Below are positions 28,513-37,828 of a DNA stretch of 64,000 nt, in pieces. Position numbers and translations under genes: made by a program. The notes below the pieces were generated by a model. The model worked only from the letters and a program-made list of their open reading frames with translations. It was not told the DNA's origin and ran no database searches. The DNA is from Halopseudomonas phragmitis. Lineage in GTDB: Bacteria; Pseudomonadota; Gammaproteobacteria; Pseudomonadales; Pseudomonadaceae. Where the stretch lies: NCBI RefSeq assembly GCF_002056295.1, contig NZ_CP020100.1, positions 1,511,501 to 1,575,500 of the forward strand, read 5' to 3'. Numbering within the stretch: position 1 is the first letter of the stretch; every line of letters starts with the position of its first letter.

Positions 28513-29919
28513 TCAGTAGCGGTAATCGTCGGCCTTGAACGGCCCTTCGACGGTTACGCCGATGTAGTCGGCCTGGGTCTGGGTCAGGCGGGTGACGACG
28601 CCACCAAAGCCTTTGACCATTTCCAGCGCGACTTCTTCGTCGAGTTTCTTCGGCAACACTTCAACCCGCAGCTTGCTGGCCTTATCGGCAGCCGGCAGGT
28701 CGGCGAACTTCTCGCCATACAAGTGGATCTGGGCCAGTACCTGGTTGGCGAACGAGCCATCCATGATCCGGCTCGGGTGGCCGGTGGCGTTGCCGAGGTT
28801 CACCAGGCGGCCTTCGGCGAGCAGGATCAGGTAGTCGTCGTTGCTCGGGTCGAAGTTGTCCTTGCCGGTGCGGTGCAGCTTGTGTACCTGCGGCTTGACC
28901 TCTTCCCAGTGCCAGTTGGCGCGGGTGTAGGCAGTGTCGATTTCGTTGTCGAAGTGGCCGATGTTGCACACCACGGCGCGCTTTTTCAGCGCCTTGAGCA
29001 TGTTGGCGTCACAGACGTTGACGTTGCCGGTGGTGGTGACGATCAGGTCGATCTTGCCCAGCAGTTCCTTGTTGATGCTGGCTTCGGTGCCGTCGTTGAG
29101 GCCGTTGTTGTAGGGCGAGACGACTTCATAGCCGTCCATGCAGGCTTGCATGGCGCAGATCGGGTCGACTTCGCTGACCTTGACGATCATGCCTTCCTGG
29201 CGCAGCGAGGCGGCCGAGCCCTTGCCCACGTCGCCATAGCCGATGACCAGGGCCTGCTTGCCGGACAGCAGGTGGTCGGTGGCGCGCTTGATGGCGTCGT
29301 TGAGGCTGTGGCGGCAGCCGTACTTGTTGTCGTTCTTGCTCTTGGTCACCGAGTCGTTGACGTTGATCGCCGGGACTTTGAGGGTGCCTTTTTTCAGCAT
29401 GTCGAGCAGGCGGTGGACACCGGTGGTGGTTTCTTCGGTGATGCCGTGAATGCGCTCGAGCATTTGCGGGTATTTGTTGTGGAGGATTTCGGTCAGGTCG
29501 CCGCCATCATCCAGAACCATGTTGGCGTCCCAGGGCTGGCCGTCCTTGAGGATGGTCTGCTCGATACACCATTCGTACTCTTCTTCGGTTTCACCTTTCC
29601 AGGCGAATACCGGGATGCCGGCAGCAGCGATGGCGGCGGCGGCCTGGTCCTGGGTGGAGAAGATGTTGCATGATGACCAGCGCACTTCGGCACCCAGGGC
29701 GGTGAGGGTTTCGATCAGTACCGCAGTCTGGATGGTCATGTGGATACAGCCAAGGATTTTGGCGCCCTTGAGCGGCTGTTCGCCGGCGTATTTGCGGCGC
29801 AGGCCCATCAGTGCCGGCATTTCCGATTCGGCGATGATGATTTCCCGGCGACCCCAGGCGGCCAGGCTGATGTCGGCGACTTTGTAGTCGGTAAAGTTTT
29901 CGTTCATAACTGCACTCAT
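28513..29919 (-). CDS. ahcY: S-adenosylhomocysteine hydrolase
   Basis: AhcY splits S-adenosylhomocysteine, the inhibitory product of methyl transfer, into adenosine and homocysteine. The 468-residue protein is of the long bacterial type. It shows [40 protein letters not shown], the NAD-binding [17 protein letters not shown] and [10 protein letters not shown]. It carries the extra internal segment around [39 protein letters not shown] seen in eukaryote-like forms. Its start follows GGAGA by 6 bases. An SAH riboswitch aptamer lies just upstream, so high SAH should raise expression. metF follows on the same strand. Confidence 0.97.
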
Positions 29920-29925
29920 GCGGTT

Positions 29926-30013
29926 TCTCCATTCGTTTGTGCGAATGGGCGCGGTTGTTTCTCATCTGCCCCGGACCGAGCCTGACGACCAATGTCGCTG
30001 CAGCGCCCCTCGG
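29926..30013 (-). promoter_or_regulatory. SAH riboswitch upstream of ahcY
   Basis: Read on the minus strand, the aptamer starts CCGAGGGGCGCTGCAGCG, close to the known SAH riboswitch consensus. CCGAG (30013-30009) pairs with CTCGG (29980-29976), and GGGCGC (30008-30003) can pair with GCGCCC (29952-29947). The expression platform also shows: CCATTCG (29948-29942) pairs with CGAATGG (29935-29929), which overlaps the Shine-Dalgarno GGAGA. The two alternatives share two bases at 29947-29948. SAH binding would thus release the ribosome site and raise AhcY. Confidence 0.88.
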
Positions 30014-30120
30014 TTGGGGTGTATTGCAAACTGTGTGCGGTGGCTGTTGTACGGATTGCTTGTCGTTACAATTCCACCGTTTGCGTAGCACTGATTGAAT
30101 CAATAAGCGTGCCTGCGGCA

Positions 30121-30218
30121 TTGCCAGTCACCTGTTCCGGACATGCTACAAGCACATCCCTGTGCGCTCGGCGATGCCCATCCCTGGGCATCGACGGTCC
30201 AGAACAGGTGACTGGCAA
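30121..30218 (+). repeat. 98-nt structured element, copy A
   Basis: Outer arms 30121-30142 and 30197-30218 pair over 22 positions with one C-A mismatch. The arms begin TTGCC and end GGCAA. Inside are two hairpins with identical TCCC loops: GCACA with TGTGC (30152-30156, 30161-30165) and CGATGCCCA with TGGGCATCG (30172-30180, 30185-30193). The same layout and exact length recur at 36475-36572 with changed but still paired bases. It lies between the ahcY riboswitch and a cytochrome c' lipoprotein gene. The orientation is given as read; it could act on either strand. Confidence 0.85.
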
Positions 30219-30281
30219 CACCGCCTGCAGTCCTGTGCAGTCAATCAGTGCTCCACCTTCTTCTTTGTGTCGGATGAAACC

Positions 30282-30743
30282 ATGCCCCCAGCTTCACCCT
30301 TCAAACTTCTGTCTCTCTGCATTCTGGGTCTGACCCTGAGTGCCTGTAGCAATCAGGTCGACCCCAACTCGCCGGAAGGCCAGCGTCAGGCGGCCTTCAA
30401 GCAGATTCTCGGTCACAGCGAGCCGCTGGGCGGCATGCTGCTGGGGCGCGTTGCCTTCGACGGCGAGGCCTTTGCCGCGCATGCCGAAGGGTTGGTCGAG
30501 CTGATCGACGCACCCTGGGCGCATTTCCCCGAACCGGGCGAGTCAAACCAGCGCAACGCCTCGCGTCCAGAGATCTGGTCCGACCCCGAAGGCTTTGCCG
30601 CTGCCATCGACGCCTACAAGTCAGCGGTCAATGAGCTGGCTGCTGTTACCCGTGAGGGTGTCGACAGCCTTGACCAGGTGCGCCAGCCGCTGACCGCCGT
30701 ACAGCAGGCCTGCAAGGCCTGTCACGACGACTACCGCCGTTAA
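30282..30743 (+). CDS. Cytochrome c'-type lipoprotein
   Basis: This 153-residue protein looks like a membrane-anchored c-type cytochrome of the c'/c-556 type. An N-terminal signal ends in the lipobox LTLSAC at about residues 17-22. A four-helix-like mature domain follows, and a C-terminal heme-attachment motif CKACHDDYRR binds heme to the last helix, which is diagnostic for the class. The start at 30282 lacks a strong ribosome-binding site, but longer forms would place the signal peptide internally. It is preceded by a 98-nt structured repeat. The electron partner is not evident from neighbours. Confidence 0.85.
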   Translation: MPPASPFKLLSLCILGLTLSACSNQVDPNSPEGQRQAAFKQILGHSEPLGGMLLGRVAFDGEAFAAHAEGLVELIDAPWAHFPEPGESNQRNASRPEIWSDPEGFAAAIDAYKSAVNELAAVTREGVDSLDQVRQPLTAVQQACKACHDDYRR

Positions 30744-35293: not shown

Positions 35294-35374
35294 CAAGCCG
35301 TTTGCGGCGAAGGCTGAAGGCCTCGTTTGCTGACGGGGCTTTCAGCGTTCAGCCTGCAGCCACGAGTGCAGCGA

Positions 35375-36424
35375 ATGATACCCACTGATCACCAGCCTTT
35401 TCGCATTGCCCTCAACGGCTACGGCCGGATTGGCCGCTGCGTGCTGCGTGCGTTGCATGAGCGCGGCGGTGACGGCCTGCAGATCGTGGCGCTGAATGAT
35501 CTGGCCGATCAGGCCAGCATCGAATACCTGACCCGTTTCGATTCGACCCATGGGCGCTTTCCTGGTGAGGTAAGCGTGGATGGCGATTGCCTGCATATCA
35601 ATGGCGATTGCGTGAAGGTGTTGCGTGAGCAGCATCCGGAAGGGGTCGACTGGGCGGCTCTGGGGGTGGATCTGCTGCTGGAGTGTTCGGGCCAGTACAC
35701 CACCCGCGAGGAGGCCCTGCGTTTTGCCCATGCCGGGGTGCCGCGTGTACTGTTTTCACAGCCGATGGCCAATGAGCAGGCGGTCGATGCGACGGTGGTC
35801 TATGGGGTCAATCATCAGCAATTGGATGCTTCGCAGCGGCTGGTGTCGAATGCTTCATGTACGACCAATTGCGGGGTGCCGCTGCTCAAGCTGCTGAATG
35901 AGCGTGTGGGGCTGGAGTATGTGTCGATCACGACCATCCATTCGGCGATGAACGATCAGCCGGTGATCGATGCCTACCATCATGATGATCTGCGTCGTAC
36001 CCGCTCGGCGTTTCAGTCGGTGATTCCGGTGTCGACCGGCTTGGCGCGGGGGATTGAGCGGTTGTTGCCGGAGCTGGCCGGGCGGATTCAGGCCAAGGCG
36101 ATCCGGGTGCCGACGGTGAATGTGTCGGCGTTGGACATCACCTTGCAAACTGCTCGTGATACCACCGCTGAGGAGATCAATGAGTTGCTCAGGGCGGCGG
36201 CAGGCGCTGAGTTTGTCGGGTTGCTGGACTATACCGAGCTGCCGCATGCCAGTTGCGATTTCAACCATGATCCGCATTCGGCGATTGTCGATGGCAGTCA
36301 GACCCGGGTGTCGGGGCCGCGGATGGTGAATCTGCTGGTGTGGTTCGATAACGAGTGGGGTTTTGCCAACCGGATGCTGGATGTGGCGGGATATTGGTTG
36401 CGGCGCTGCGGGCCAGAAGGCTGA
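35375..36424 (+). CDS. epd: Erythrose-4-phosphate dehydrogenase
   Basis: Epd oxidises erythrose 4-phosphate to 4-phosphoerythronate, the first step of the pyridoxal phosphate pathway. It is a GapA homologue. The 349-residue protein has the NAD-binding ALNGYGRIGRCVLRAL, the active-site cysteine in SNASCTTNCGVPLLK, and FDNEWGFANRMLDVAGYW at the end. The TIHSAMNDQPVIDAYHHDDLRRTRSAFQSVIPVSTGLARGIERLLPEL segment favours Epd over glycolytic GapA. The start has a poor ribosome-binding site, so another nearby start cannot be excluded. Its place between tktA and pgk matches the known epd-pgk-fba layout. Confidence 0.93.
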   Translation: MIPTDHQPFRIALNGYGRIGRCVLRALHERGGDGLQIVALNDLADQASIEYLTRFDSTHGRFPGEVSVDGDCLHINGDCVKVLREQHPEGVDWAALGVDLLLECSGQYTTREEALRFAHAGVPRVLFSQPMANEQAVDATVVYGVNHQQLDASQRLVSNASCTTNCGVPLLKLLNERVGLEYVSITTIHSAMNDQPVIDAYHHDDLRRTRSAFQSVIPVSTGLARGIERLLPELAGRIQAKAIRVPTVNVSALDITLQTARDTTAEEINELLRAAAGAEFVGLLDYTELPHASCDFNHDPHSAIVDGSQTRVSGPRMVNLLVWFDNEWGFANRMLDVAGYWLRRCGPEG

Positions 36425-36474: not shown

Positions 36475-36572
36475 TTGCCGTTAGCCGGTCATGGACACGC
36501 TGCAAGTACGTCCCTGTAAGCTCGGCGATAGCCATCCCTGGCTATCGACGGTCCATGACCGGCTAACGGCAA
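36475..36572 (+). repeat. 98-nt structured element, copy B
   Basis: Perfect 22-bp arms (36475-36496 and 36551-36572) enclose two hairpins with TCCC loops: TACG with TGTA (36507-36510, 36515-36518, one wobble) and CGATAGCCA with TGGCTATCG (36526-36534, 36539-36547). Length equals copy A. The interior matches copy A at 44 of 54 positions. Arm and stem bases differ from copy A almost only by paired changes. It lies between epd and pgk and accounts for much of their 243-base gap. Confidence 0.85.
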
Positions 36573-36667
36573 CGGCCCTTTCAGGGCTGCATTGTTGCTT
36601 CAGGTTTGTGGTCCAGTGAAGACTTTGTAGCTGACTAGTTTGAAATTTTTGATTCAAGGAGCCAGAA

Positions 36668-37828
36668 ATGAGCGTATTGACCATGCAGGAGCTGGATCTC
36701 AAAGGCCAGCGGGTGCTGATTCGTGAAGATCTGAACGTGCCGGTCAAGAACGGCAAGGTGGCCAGTGATGCGCGTATCGTCGCGTCCTTGCCGACCATCA
36801 AGCTGGCGCTGGAGAAGGGCGCGGCAGTGATGGTCTGTTCGCACCTGGGGCGGCCGGAAGAAGGCGTGTTCAGTGAGGAGAACAGCCTGGCACCGGTAGC
36901 GGCCTACCTGAGCGAGGCGTTGGGTCGTGAGGTGCCGCTGGTTCGCGATTATCTGGATGGCGTTGCAGTGCAGCCCGGTGAGCTGGTGCTGCTGGAGAAC
37001 GTACGCTTCAACAGCGGTGAGAAGAAGAATACCGATGAGCTGGCGCAGAAATATGCGGCGCTTTGTGATGTGTTTGTGATGGATGCCTTTGGTACTGCGC
37101 ACCGGGCTCAGGGTTCGACCCATGGGGCGGCGAAGTTTGCCAAAGTGGCCTGTGCCGGCCCGCTGCTGGCGGCTGAGCTGGAGGCGCTGGCCAAGGCACT
37201 GGACAAGCCGGCGCGGCCGATGCTGGCGATTGTCGCAGGCTCCAAGGTGTCGACCAAGCTGGATGTGCTCAATGCTCTGGCTGAGAAGTGCGATCAGTTG
37301 ATTGTTGGCGGTGGTATCGCCAATACCTTCCTTGCGGCTGCTGGCTACAAGGTTGGCAAGTCGCTGTATGAGGCTGATCTGGTGGATACCGCCAAGGCCA
37401 TCGCGGCCAAGGTCAGCGTGCCGCTGCCGACTGATGTGGTGGTGGCCAAGGAGTTTGCCGAAAGCGCTGAGGCGACAGTCAAAGCGATTGCCGATGTAGC
37501 CGATGACGACATGATTCTGGATATCGGGCCGCAAACCGCCAAGATCTTTGGCGAGATGCTCAAGGCTTCCGGTACCATTTTGTGGAATGGCCCGGTTGGC
37601 GTGTTCGAGTTCGACCAGTTTGGCAACGGTACCAAGGTGCTGGCCGAGGCGATTGCCCAAAGCCCGGCGTTTTCGATTGCCGGTGGTGGCGATACCCTGG
37701 CAGCAATTGACAAGTATGGCGTAGCTGAGCGGATTTCCTATATTTCTACTGGTGGCGGTGCGTTCCTCGAGTTTGTCGAGGGCAAGGTGTTGCCGGCGGT
37801 CGAGATTCTGCAGCAGCGCGCACGATAA
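36668..37828 (+). CDS. pgk: Phosphoglycerate kinase
   Basis: Pgk transfers phosphate between 1,3-bisphosphoglycerate and ADP in glycolysis and gluconeogenesis. The 386-residue protein has the usual two-domain plan: [27 protein letters not shown] and [10 protein letters not shown] in the N-terminal substrate domain, [14 protein letters not shown], and [25 protein letters not shown] and [15 protein letters not shown] in the nucleotide domain. AAGGAG lies 7 bases before the ATG. The gene is preceded by the second 98-nt structured element and followed after 34 bases by fba. The short spacing suggests that pgk and fba are co-transcribed. Confidence 0.97.

Follow-up and report, generated by a model that had tools for sequence, protein, structure and literature searches.

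Small RNAs of the CsrB/RsmZ type, which sequester CsrA/RsmA, carry several GGA-bearing hairpin loops on one RNA. Among dispersed repeats, REP and REPIN sequences are short intergenic palindromes with a GTAG-type head and a RAYT transposase, often arranged as inverted pairs, while integron attC sites have core sites for the integrase (R and L boxes), a cassette context and one folded strand. Terminal repeats with a 4-bp YTAR duplication are a double-strand, DDE-type signature. In the accessible parts of the publications concerned, the Rsm motif is given as 5'CANGGANG3' and the RsmE consensus as A/UCANGGANGU/A, more commonly in penta- or hexaloops (PMC6849547), and the SELEX consensus for CsrA as RUACARGGAUGU, mostly in six-base loops closed by AC/GU, with four or fewer stem pairs in most ligands (PMC7652899). 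According to the same partly available source, a CsrA dimer bridges two sites that are 10–63 nt apart, with an optimum above 18 nt (PMC7652899).

We found no published description of the repeat studied here, including, judged by title, among papers that contain its core 12-mers on either strand; most subscription journals were not covered by the search, and an older name may exist. The available portion of a study on CsrA-related sRNAs of Alcanivorax (PMC9788540) does not describe it, a MITE review (PMC10969869) does not mention CsrA as far as its text was accessible, and the accessible part of a paper on stem-loop families (PMC2267715) mentions neither Xanthomonas nor Shewanella.

The stretch of Halopseudomonas phragmitis DNA analysed here (64,000 nt, hereafter the window) contains two such elements, copy A (30121–30218) and copy B (36475–36572). 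Direct reading of the letters bears out their geometry as described in an earlier, sequence-only reading of the window: both copies are exactly 98 nt long, both have 22-position outer arms that start with TTGCC and end with GGCAA, and both hairpins of each copy have a TCCC loop on the plus strand. Eight arm columns differ between the copies (6, 7, 9, 10, 13, 16, 17 and 18), seven of which are changed on both sides; column 18 is C.A in copy A and T-A in copy B. The interiors are identical at 44 of 54 positions. The summary given at the time, that the copies share a fold and not a sequence, is accurate for the arms only, as the interior is 81% identical and the junction is strongly conserved across the family. 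The parts of the two copies are the following.

30089–30098, plus strand: left terminal inverted repeat of copy A, decayed, CACTGATTGA; from the sequence, as the exact inverse of 30241–30250 and a partial match to the family end of the carrier MITE, GGAAACACTGATTAA
30121–30142, no strand: left arm of the copy A stalk (P1), 22 positions including GAC; from sequence, folding and pair table
30152–30165, minus strand: hairpin 1 (P3) of copy A, with the minus-strand loop CAGGGATG at 30155–30162, an instance of CANGGANG; from sequence and family consensus
30172–30193, minus strand: hairpin 2 (P2) of copy A, with the minus-strand loop CAGGGATG at 30179–30186, an instance of CANGGANG; from folding and family consensus
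30197–30218, no strand: right arm of the copy A stalk (P1); from sequence, folding and pair table
30241–30250, minus strand: right terminal inverted repeat of copy A, decayed, TCAATCAGTG; from the sequence, the element-bearing stretch being absent in the relative G019
36475–36496, no strand: left arm of the copy B stalk (P1); from sequence, folding and pair table
36506–36519, minus strand: hairpin 1 of copy B, with the minus-strand loop CAGGGACG at 36509–36516, an instance of CANGGANG; from sequence and open-pattern search
36526–36547, minus strand: hairpin 2 of copy B, with the minus-strand loop CAGGGATG at 36533–36540, an instance of CANGGANG; from sequence and folding
36551–36572, no strand: right arm of the copy B stalk (P1); from the sequence

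No terminal repeats were recognised around copy B. Copy A is flanked by ahcY (minus strand, 28513–29919, AdoHcyase domain) and by a plus-strand cytochrome c' gene that is part of an ORF at 30162–30743. An SAH riboswitch (29940–30017, minus strand) lies ahead of ahcY; copy A is just upstream of it, and the minus strand of copy A has the same direction. Copy B is flanked by a glyceraldehyde-3-phosphate dehydrogenase family gene (35327–36424) and pgk (36668–37828), and is directly followed by a terminator-like hairpin of 7 pairs (36573–36589, plus strand).

Both copies fold significantly: as RNA, on either strand, they reached z scores of −9.5 to −10.1, with none of 200 shuffles as good, and as DNA −9.8 to −11.8. 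At gathering score, Rfam returned only the SAH riboswitch in the window and nothing over the elements, while at 15 other element-bearing loci it returned only sX9 and tRNA, away from the elements. Lowering the threshold to E ≤ 5 over copy A yielded eight matches, all far below gathering, which we took to be generic long-hairpin matches. The best was MIR1883, a long hairpin of microRNA type (36.4 bits versus a gathering score of 128), and one was bacterial, ivy-DE (21.3 versus 41.4). The covariance models for CsrB, CsrC, RsmY and RsmZ had no gathering-score match in the window or the 15 loci, and none at E ≤ 5 over copy A.

Searching the 4.035-Mb genome with the DNA of copy A gave 46 matches at E ≤ 10, 33 of them at E ≤ 1e-7. 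A covariance model (R1) built from an alignment of 26 copies from this genome (A1) returned 68 rows there, comprising 44 separate loci and 24 opposite-strand rows of the same loci. The DNA search alone added two more copies, both containing internal inserts, which brings the genome to about 46 copies. By eye only, their positions and strands look mixed relative to the replication strand. R1 also had matches elsewhere in the genus (18 of 24 genomes) and in other families of the same order (4 of 13 genomes). The core pattern was present in at least 120 stretches in named genomes (80 loci listed) from many gammaproteobacterial genera, and among the matches listed were Marinobacter, Halopseudomonas, Microbulbifer, Xanthomonas, Stenotrophomonas, Shewanella, Alteromonas, Alcanivorax, Cellvibrio, Haliea, Oceanisphaera and others. 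The family to which copies A and B belong has about 46 members in our genome and others in many gammaproteobacterial genera, a spread that the sequence-only reading could not see, any more than the folded strand or the identity of the loop with the CsrA/RsmA site. With hairpin 1 left open, the pattern was found in 21 of 369 genomes of the class, including our own, while a reversed control matched one (G155); three of the 21 (G176, G199 and G303) look like chance matches outside the family. Copy B had no match in 20,395 E. coli records. We rejected a plasmid or viral origin: copy A with its flanks had no match in plasmids, the core pattern occurred in 0 viral contigs, and a Stenotrophomonas element used as query gave two partial plasmid matches, from Marinobacter and Sinorhizobium.

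Variants of the basic layout were also seen. A hairpin-rich insert of about 80 nt breaks the hairpin-1 loop in at least eight own-genome copies (L010, L029, L030 and L034–L038) and was found once in a copy with quite different arms. The hairpin-2 loop can hold a second module, consisting of a CANGGANG-type hairpin and a hairpin with a GCAGGAGC loop (L037, L038, L138, L278 and L282), which occurs in different genera and in either orientation; only two copies of it were found in our genome. Inverted pairs of elements about 150–300 nt apart are present in several genera (L012, L126, L150, L156, L161, L173, L187 and G012:C1:3168771), L012 being the pair 103959+/104129− of G000. At L067 (G026, from another family of the order) there is a minimal element with arms and hairpin 1 and without hairpin 2.

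Whether the fold itself is under selection can be judged from the pairing in further copies. Within our genome, the outer helix (22 pairs in the 26 copies of A1) is 97.2% paired, with 17 of the 22 pairs changing on both sides and a single cell changed on one side. For the wider family we used an alignment (A2) of 100 of 104 insert-free elements, all on the minus strand, from 110 loci (L111–L190 and L231–L260); L125, L252, L256 and L259 were left out by hand, not for pairing. Most A2 rows come from other genera, some are from the same genus, three are from our own genome (L245, and L260 twice), and some genomes contribute several. Elements entered A2 by the core pattern and at least 12 of 16 Watson-Crick arm positions. 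The search patterns imposed the GACACGC-type letters and, for most rows, also GCTYG and the hairpin-1 loop. Because the elements were selected on arm pairing, the paired percentage in A2 is inflated; the variety of pair types and the asymmetry of mismatches are not.

The A2 structure has 34 pairs, and 94.8% of its cells pair, versus 61.6% after shuffling and 35–43% with partners slid. The number of pairs changing on both sides (28 of 34) says little by itself, because shuffles gave 26.6 and 80 of 500 were as high. Cells with changes on both sides, by contrast with their shuffles, number 1104 versus 312, and the covariation score is 0.811 versus 0.175. RNAalifold returned the same structure from A2 unaided. 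The short stem of hairpin 1 is supported by covariation (A2 pairs 55–67 and 56–66), and the junction is strongly conserved across A2. By eye, junction columns 68 and 71, three apart, appear to co-vary (U..A or C..G), as in a CUUG-type two-base loop. The orthologue of copy A in G018 has three compensated pair differences; it is no proof of point-by-point compensation, because about 80 nt beside the element have also strongly diverged.

Single-stranded structure tolerates G.U and G.A, and the mirror strand then shows A.C and C.U. We counted these over 156 of 182 distinct pattern matches, namely those with at least 14 of 20 arm positions paired. Within the contiguous helix, 121 G.U cells fall on the minus strand versus 15 on the plus strand (counted by element, 69 elements versus 7, the rest being ties), and over all 20 arm positions the count is 151 versus 20. 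The own, genus and named sets all lean the same way (9:2, 22:1 and 90:12), although elements of one genus are related and P values of these counts overstate independence. On the minus strand, the stalk mismatches in A2 are G.U 65/A.C 9, G.A 30/C.U 3, G.G 9/C.C 1 and A.A 5/U.U 4; with hairpin 2 added they become 85/22, 69/17, 24/8 and 11/7 in the same order. This tolerance of G.U and G.A, with few of the mirror mismatches A.C and C.U, identifies the minus strand as the one that folds. Strand-biased deamination could give the G.U/A.C ratio, but not the G.A/C.U ratio. The proposal of the sequence-only reading that the fold is selected gains support from the covariation, the pairing and this one-strand asymmetry, and the outcomes that it had named as refuting, an absence of covariation or of a consistent loop in further copies, did not materialise.

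The same counts bear on a passive origin, in which the element is a palindromic MITE whose arms are kept complementary by template switching in replication (quasi-palindrome correction), without selection on the folded product. Scored against the commonest pair, the outer helix of the 26 own copies has 69 cells changed on both sides, 1 changed on one side and 16 unpaired, as such correction would leave it. Copies of A1 that are otherwise nearly identical have T.C, G-C or T-A at column 4/95, which looks like resolution in either direction, and several copies have lost their interior, some at short direct repeats (by eye). Quasi-palindrome correction probably does help to keep young arms matched, as at column 4/95. 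Template switching is strand-blind, however, and cannot give G.U 65 versus A.C 9 or G.A 30 versus C.U 3, nor does it conserve loops and junction across genera; as a full account of the family we consider it improbable.

On the minus strand, the hairpin loops have a recurrent content. Leaving hairpin 1 free gave CANGGANG in 76 of 82 rows, in a listing restricted to the first places of each genome, with N1 being G53 U18 C6 A5 and N2 being U43 C19 G13 A7 over those rows; three of the six exceptions are the apparent chance matches G176, G199 and G303. Hairpin 2, left free in the searches, has CANGGANG in 81 of 104 elements and GGA in 103. Both sites are present in 79 elements, where the two GGAs are 23 nt apart in 70, 24 nt in 8 and 25 nt in 1. 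On the plus strand, the motif occurs in 6 of these 104 cores. The 10-mer [A/U]CANGGANG[A/U] occurs in 65 of the 100 A2 rows and the exact SELEX 12-mer in only 5. In A1, all 26 copies keep the hairpin-1 site, and in 14 of 26 the hairpin-2 loop is changed and retains just the GGA (by eye).

We had taken CANGGANG (ANGGA) in two hairpin loops as the mark of a CsrA site, and at the sequence level this is met. The bridging distance described in the available part of PMC7652899 (10–63 nt, best above 18) is met as well, with 23 nt in 70 of 79 elements. In their letters, the loops match the published RsmA/RsmE/CsrA site in fixed positions, free positions and spacing. This loop identity therefore makes CsrA/RsmA the best candidate partner; binding and a bridging geometry are inferred from sequence alone, as there are no binding or transcript data. 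Single-sequence RNA folds of the minus strand show hairpin 2 in the expected form in both copies and hairpin 1 in neither: in copy A its register is shifted, with GGA still in the loop, and copy B forms a different hairpin in which part of the hairpin-1 GGA is paired. When the minus strand of copy A was folded as DNA, the consensus hairpin 1 formed. Hairpin 2 has stems of 7–9 bp, more than the maximum of four pairs found in most SELEX ligands. The conserved junction is left unexplained by CsrA, being more conserved than CsrA binding needs.

Our genome and all 37 relatives searched have a csrA gene (38 of 38), as do 313 of 369 genomes of the class and 15 of 17 element-bearing ones other than our own; the two without a match are 75% and 85% complete. 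E. coli has csrA, yet copy B is unmatched there. Co-occurrence with csrA was dropped as a test, being uninformative when 313 of 369 class genomes have the gene, and our literature search yielded nothing usable on the published distribution of csrA.

Many copies in our genome lie within a longer element that runs from GGAAACACTGATTAA to TTAATCAGTGTTTCC. The end pattern GGRARCACTGATTAA (at most one mismatch) has 65 matches in the genome versus 0 for its reversed control, and the presence of terminal inverted repeats, as expected of a MITE, holds for part of the copies. The 36 listed end pairs, with one locus listed twice, enclose 71–301 bp, 173 bp being the commonest length. Identical 4-bp flanks, as expected of target-site duplication, are present in 13 of the 36, 11 of them YTAR, and absent in 23; counting the twice-listed locus once, there are 12 identical flanks, 10 of them YTAR, among 35. 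The YTAR duplication and repeats starting with GG make this carrier what we take to be an IS5-group-like MITE. No PF01609 (DDE_Tnp_1) transposase was found in our genome; four of seven genomes searched had PF01609 matches, the ends of those elements not having been examined. Elements of 71–94 bp have lost the interior, and those viewed among the elements of 250–301 bp have inserts in the hairpins. Interior-deleted MITEs (L095, L098, L102, L103 and L110), some at short direct repeats, are cases of palindrome instability.

Comparison with relatives also points to movement. In G019, the copy A site shows an insertion polymorphism, with 34 nt in place of 203 nt of the query; at the copy B site, 254 nt are replaced by 77 nt in G002, with similar gaps in others. 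With 65 versus 0 end matches, 4-bp target duplications and sites empty in relatives, the earlier suggestion of a mobile palindromic element is well founded. The copy A site holds elements with other arms in G018, G409 and G406 and one in the opposite orientation in G015, and the copy B site holds two elements in opposite orientations in G019 and G406. Relative to G018, 18 of our elements have a counterpart between matching flanks (two share one), and five of these rows, representing four G018 elements, are inverted. Among the 47 orthologue rows, own element 4/L338 is not clean, its right flank being unaligned, and own element 15 aligns poorly; own elements 10, 16 and 19 are clean inversions relative to G018, with ends and target sites in place. 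This suggests that MITE interiors flip frequently between orthologous sites while the ends stay.

A mobile family leaves room for the chief rival, which is not excluded: the fold would form in single-stranded DNA during transposition or replication, where a transposase or recombinase reads junction and loops, as the integron integrase does on attC, and the likeness to a CsrA site would be coincidental. The copies fold no less significantly as DNA than as RNA, and the consensus hairpin 1 of copy A forms as DNA and not as RNA. Strand-specific folding of DNA would yield the same mismatch asymmetry, orientation to genes is random, and the junction is conserved beyond the needs of CsrA binding. Many copies, however, sit between ordinary terminal repeats with a 4-bp YTAR duplication, which need no internal fold. 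Also against it, the Xanthomonas and Stenotrophomonas copies viewed keep junction and loops without obvious terminal repeats in the 60–100 nt seen (by eye). A CsrA site predicts that precisely these two N positions are free, and we know of nothing for a recombinase that would. We regard this DNA-level explanation as possible, if unlikely.

Gene context was determined for the 131 of 156 elements with callable neighbours, using a simple ORF rule and no gene finder; the rule flagged 52 elements as mostly inside a long ORF, and the flag was left unchecked. The elements lie in 47 convergent, 20 divergent and 64 tandem gaps, versus 79, 83 and 181 among background gaps of at least 60 nt at the same loci. 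This convergent excess would suit a REP/BIME-like element at transcript ends, where long hairpins at the 3' ends of genes stop transcription or block exonucleases and the loops are incidental; the terminator-like site directly after copy B (36573–36589, plus strand, 7 pairs) and the inverted pairs 150–300 nt apart in several genera are compatible with it. Purifying selection, though, leaves a convergent bias for any intergenic insertion, conservation of loop, junction and strand is more than a generic stem requires, and neither copy A nor copy B has a U-run directly after the stalk on either strand. We find such a role quite improbable as the explanation of the family. In tandem gaps, the minus strand is sense in 30 cases and antisense in 34. 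With a random orientation to neighbouring genes, and with inversions at some orthologous positions, the elements have no constant cis role. The simplest function is a decoy made upon transcription, since random orientation is easier to reconcile with this than with a cis switch; transcription itself has not been demonstrated.

The analysis thus establishes a family with covariation, strand bias, a loop consensus, constant spacing and mobility. Our best reading is that it is a mobile, strand-specific structured element with a paired CsrA/RsmA site, perhaps a decoy, its binding inferred and its transcription unshown; we give this reading an even chance of being right. The functional strand would be the minus strand of copies A and B as given. 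In RNA form, a long stalk of 20–30 bp, free in sequence, would be capped by a conserved three-way junction (GAC-CGU ... CGAGC ... GCGUGUC) that presents two hairpins with CANGGANG loops and GGAs 23 nt apart. One CsrA/RsmA dimer is predicted to bridge both loops, and any transcribed copy would therefore hold one dimer, serving as a decoy or as a tether on a host transcript. In this lineage, many copies would have spread as cargo of the MITE of about 173 bp with its 4-bp YTAR target duplications. That the element functions as a decoy, and that element or host benefits, is a guess. A bolder version, which we put forward only tentatively and ourselves rather doubt, is that mobile RNA decoys operate across gammaproteobacteria: each transcript would clamp one CsrA/RsmA dimer, copy number and position would set free CsrA, and selfish elements would plug into a global regulator of the host.

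If the loops do bind CsrA/RsmA, many gammaproteobacterial genomes contain dozens of binding-site pairs that have no Rfam family and were spread by transposition. Models of Csr/Rsm regulation that count only RNAs of the CsrB/RsmZ type would then be incomplete, and transposition could add and remove regulatory decoys. Even if CsrA plays no part, the family remains a clean example of a repeat with unconstrained arm sequences, fixed pairing and a bias to one strand.

Set against the known systems, the element resembles several and coincides with none. As in integron attC, structure is conserved more than sequence and one strand is folded. Like REP, BIME and REPIN sequences it forms dispersed intergenic palindromes, often as inverted pairs, but it is longer, its arms are free in sequence, and it has a conserved internal junction and CANGGANG loops. 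The title of a paper on Coxiella burnetii MITEs (PMC5896051) links MITEs to small RNA evolution, and the accessible part of that paper does not mention a CsrA-site architecture. With IS5-group-like MITEs the element shares terminal inverted repeats, the 4-bp YTAR duplication, short length, tens of copies and sites that are empty in relatives; unlike them, it has a structured, strand-specific core, which is also found where no terminal repeats were recognised. It differs from CsrB/RsmZ in having only two sites at fixed spacing and a long variable stalk with a conserved three-way junction. Each genome has tens of copies, Rfam gave no match to the elements in the window or at the 15 other loci, and no promoter of its own has been demonstrated. 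It resembles those sequestering sRNAs in bearing several GGA-containing hairpin loops with a CANGGANG-type site on what would be one RNA. The elements are not members of any Rfam Csr/Rsm family; in the reading that we prefer, they work like Csr/Rsm sequestering RNAs and travel like a MITE.
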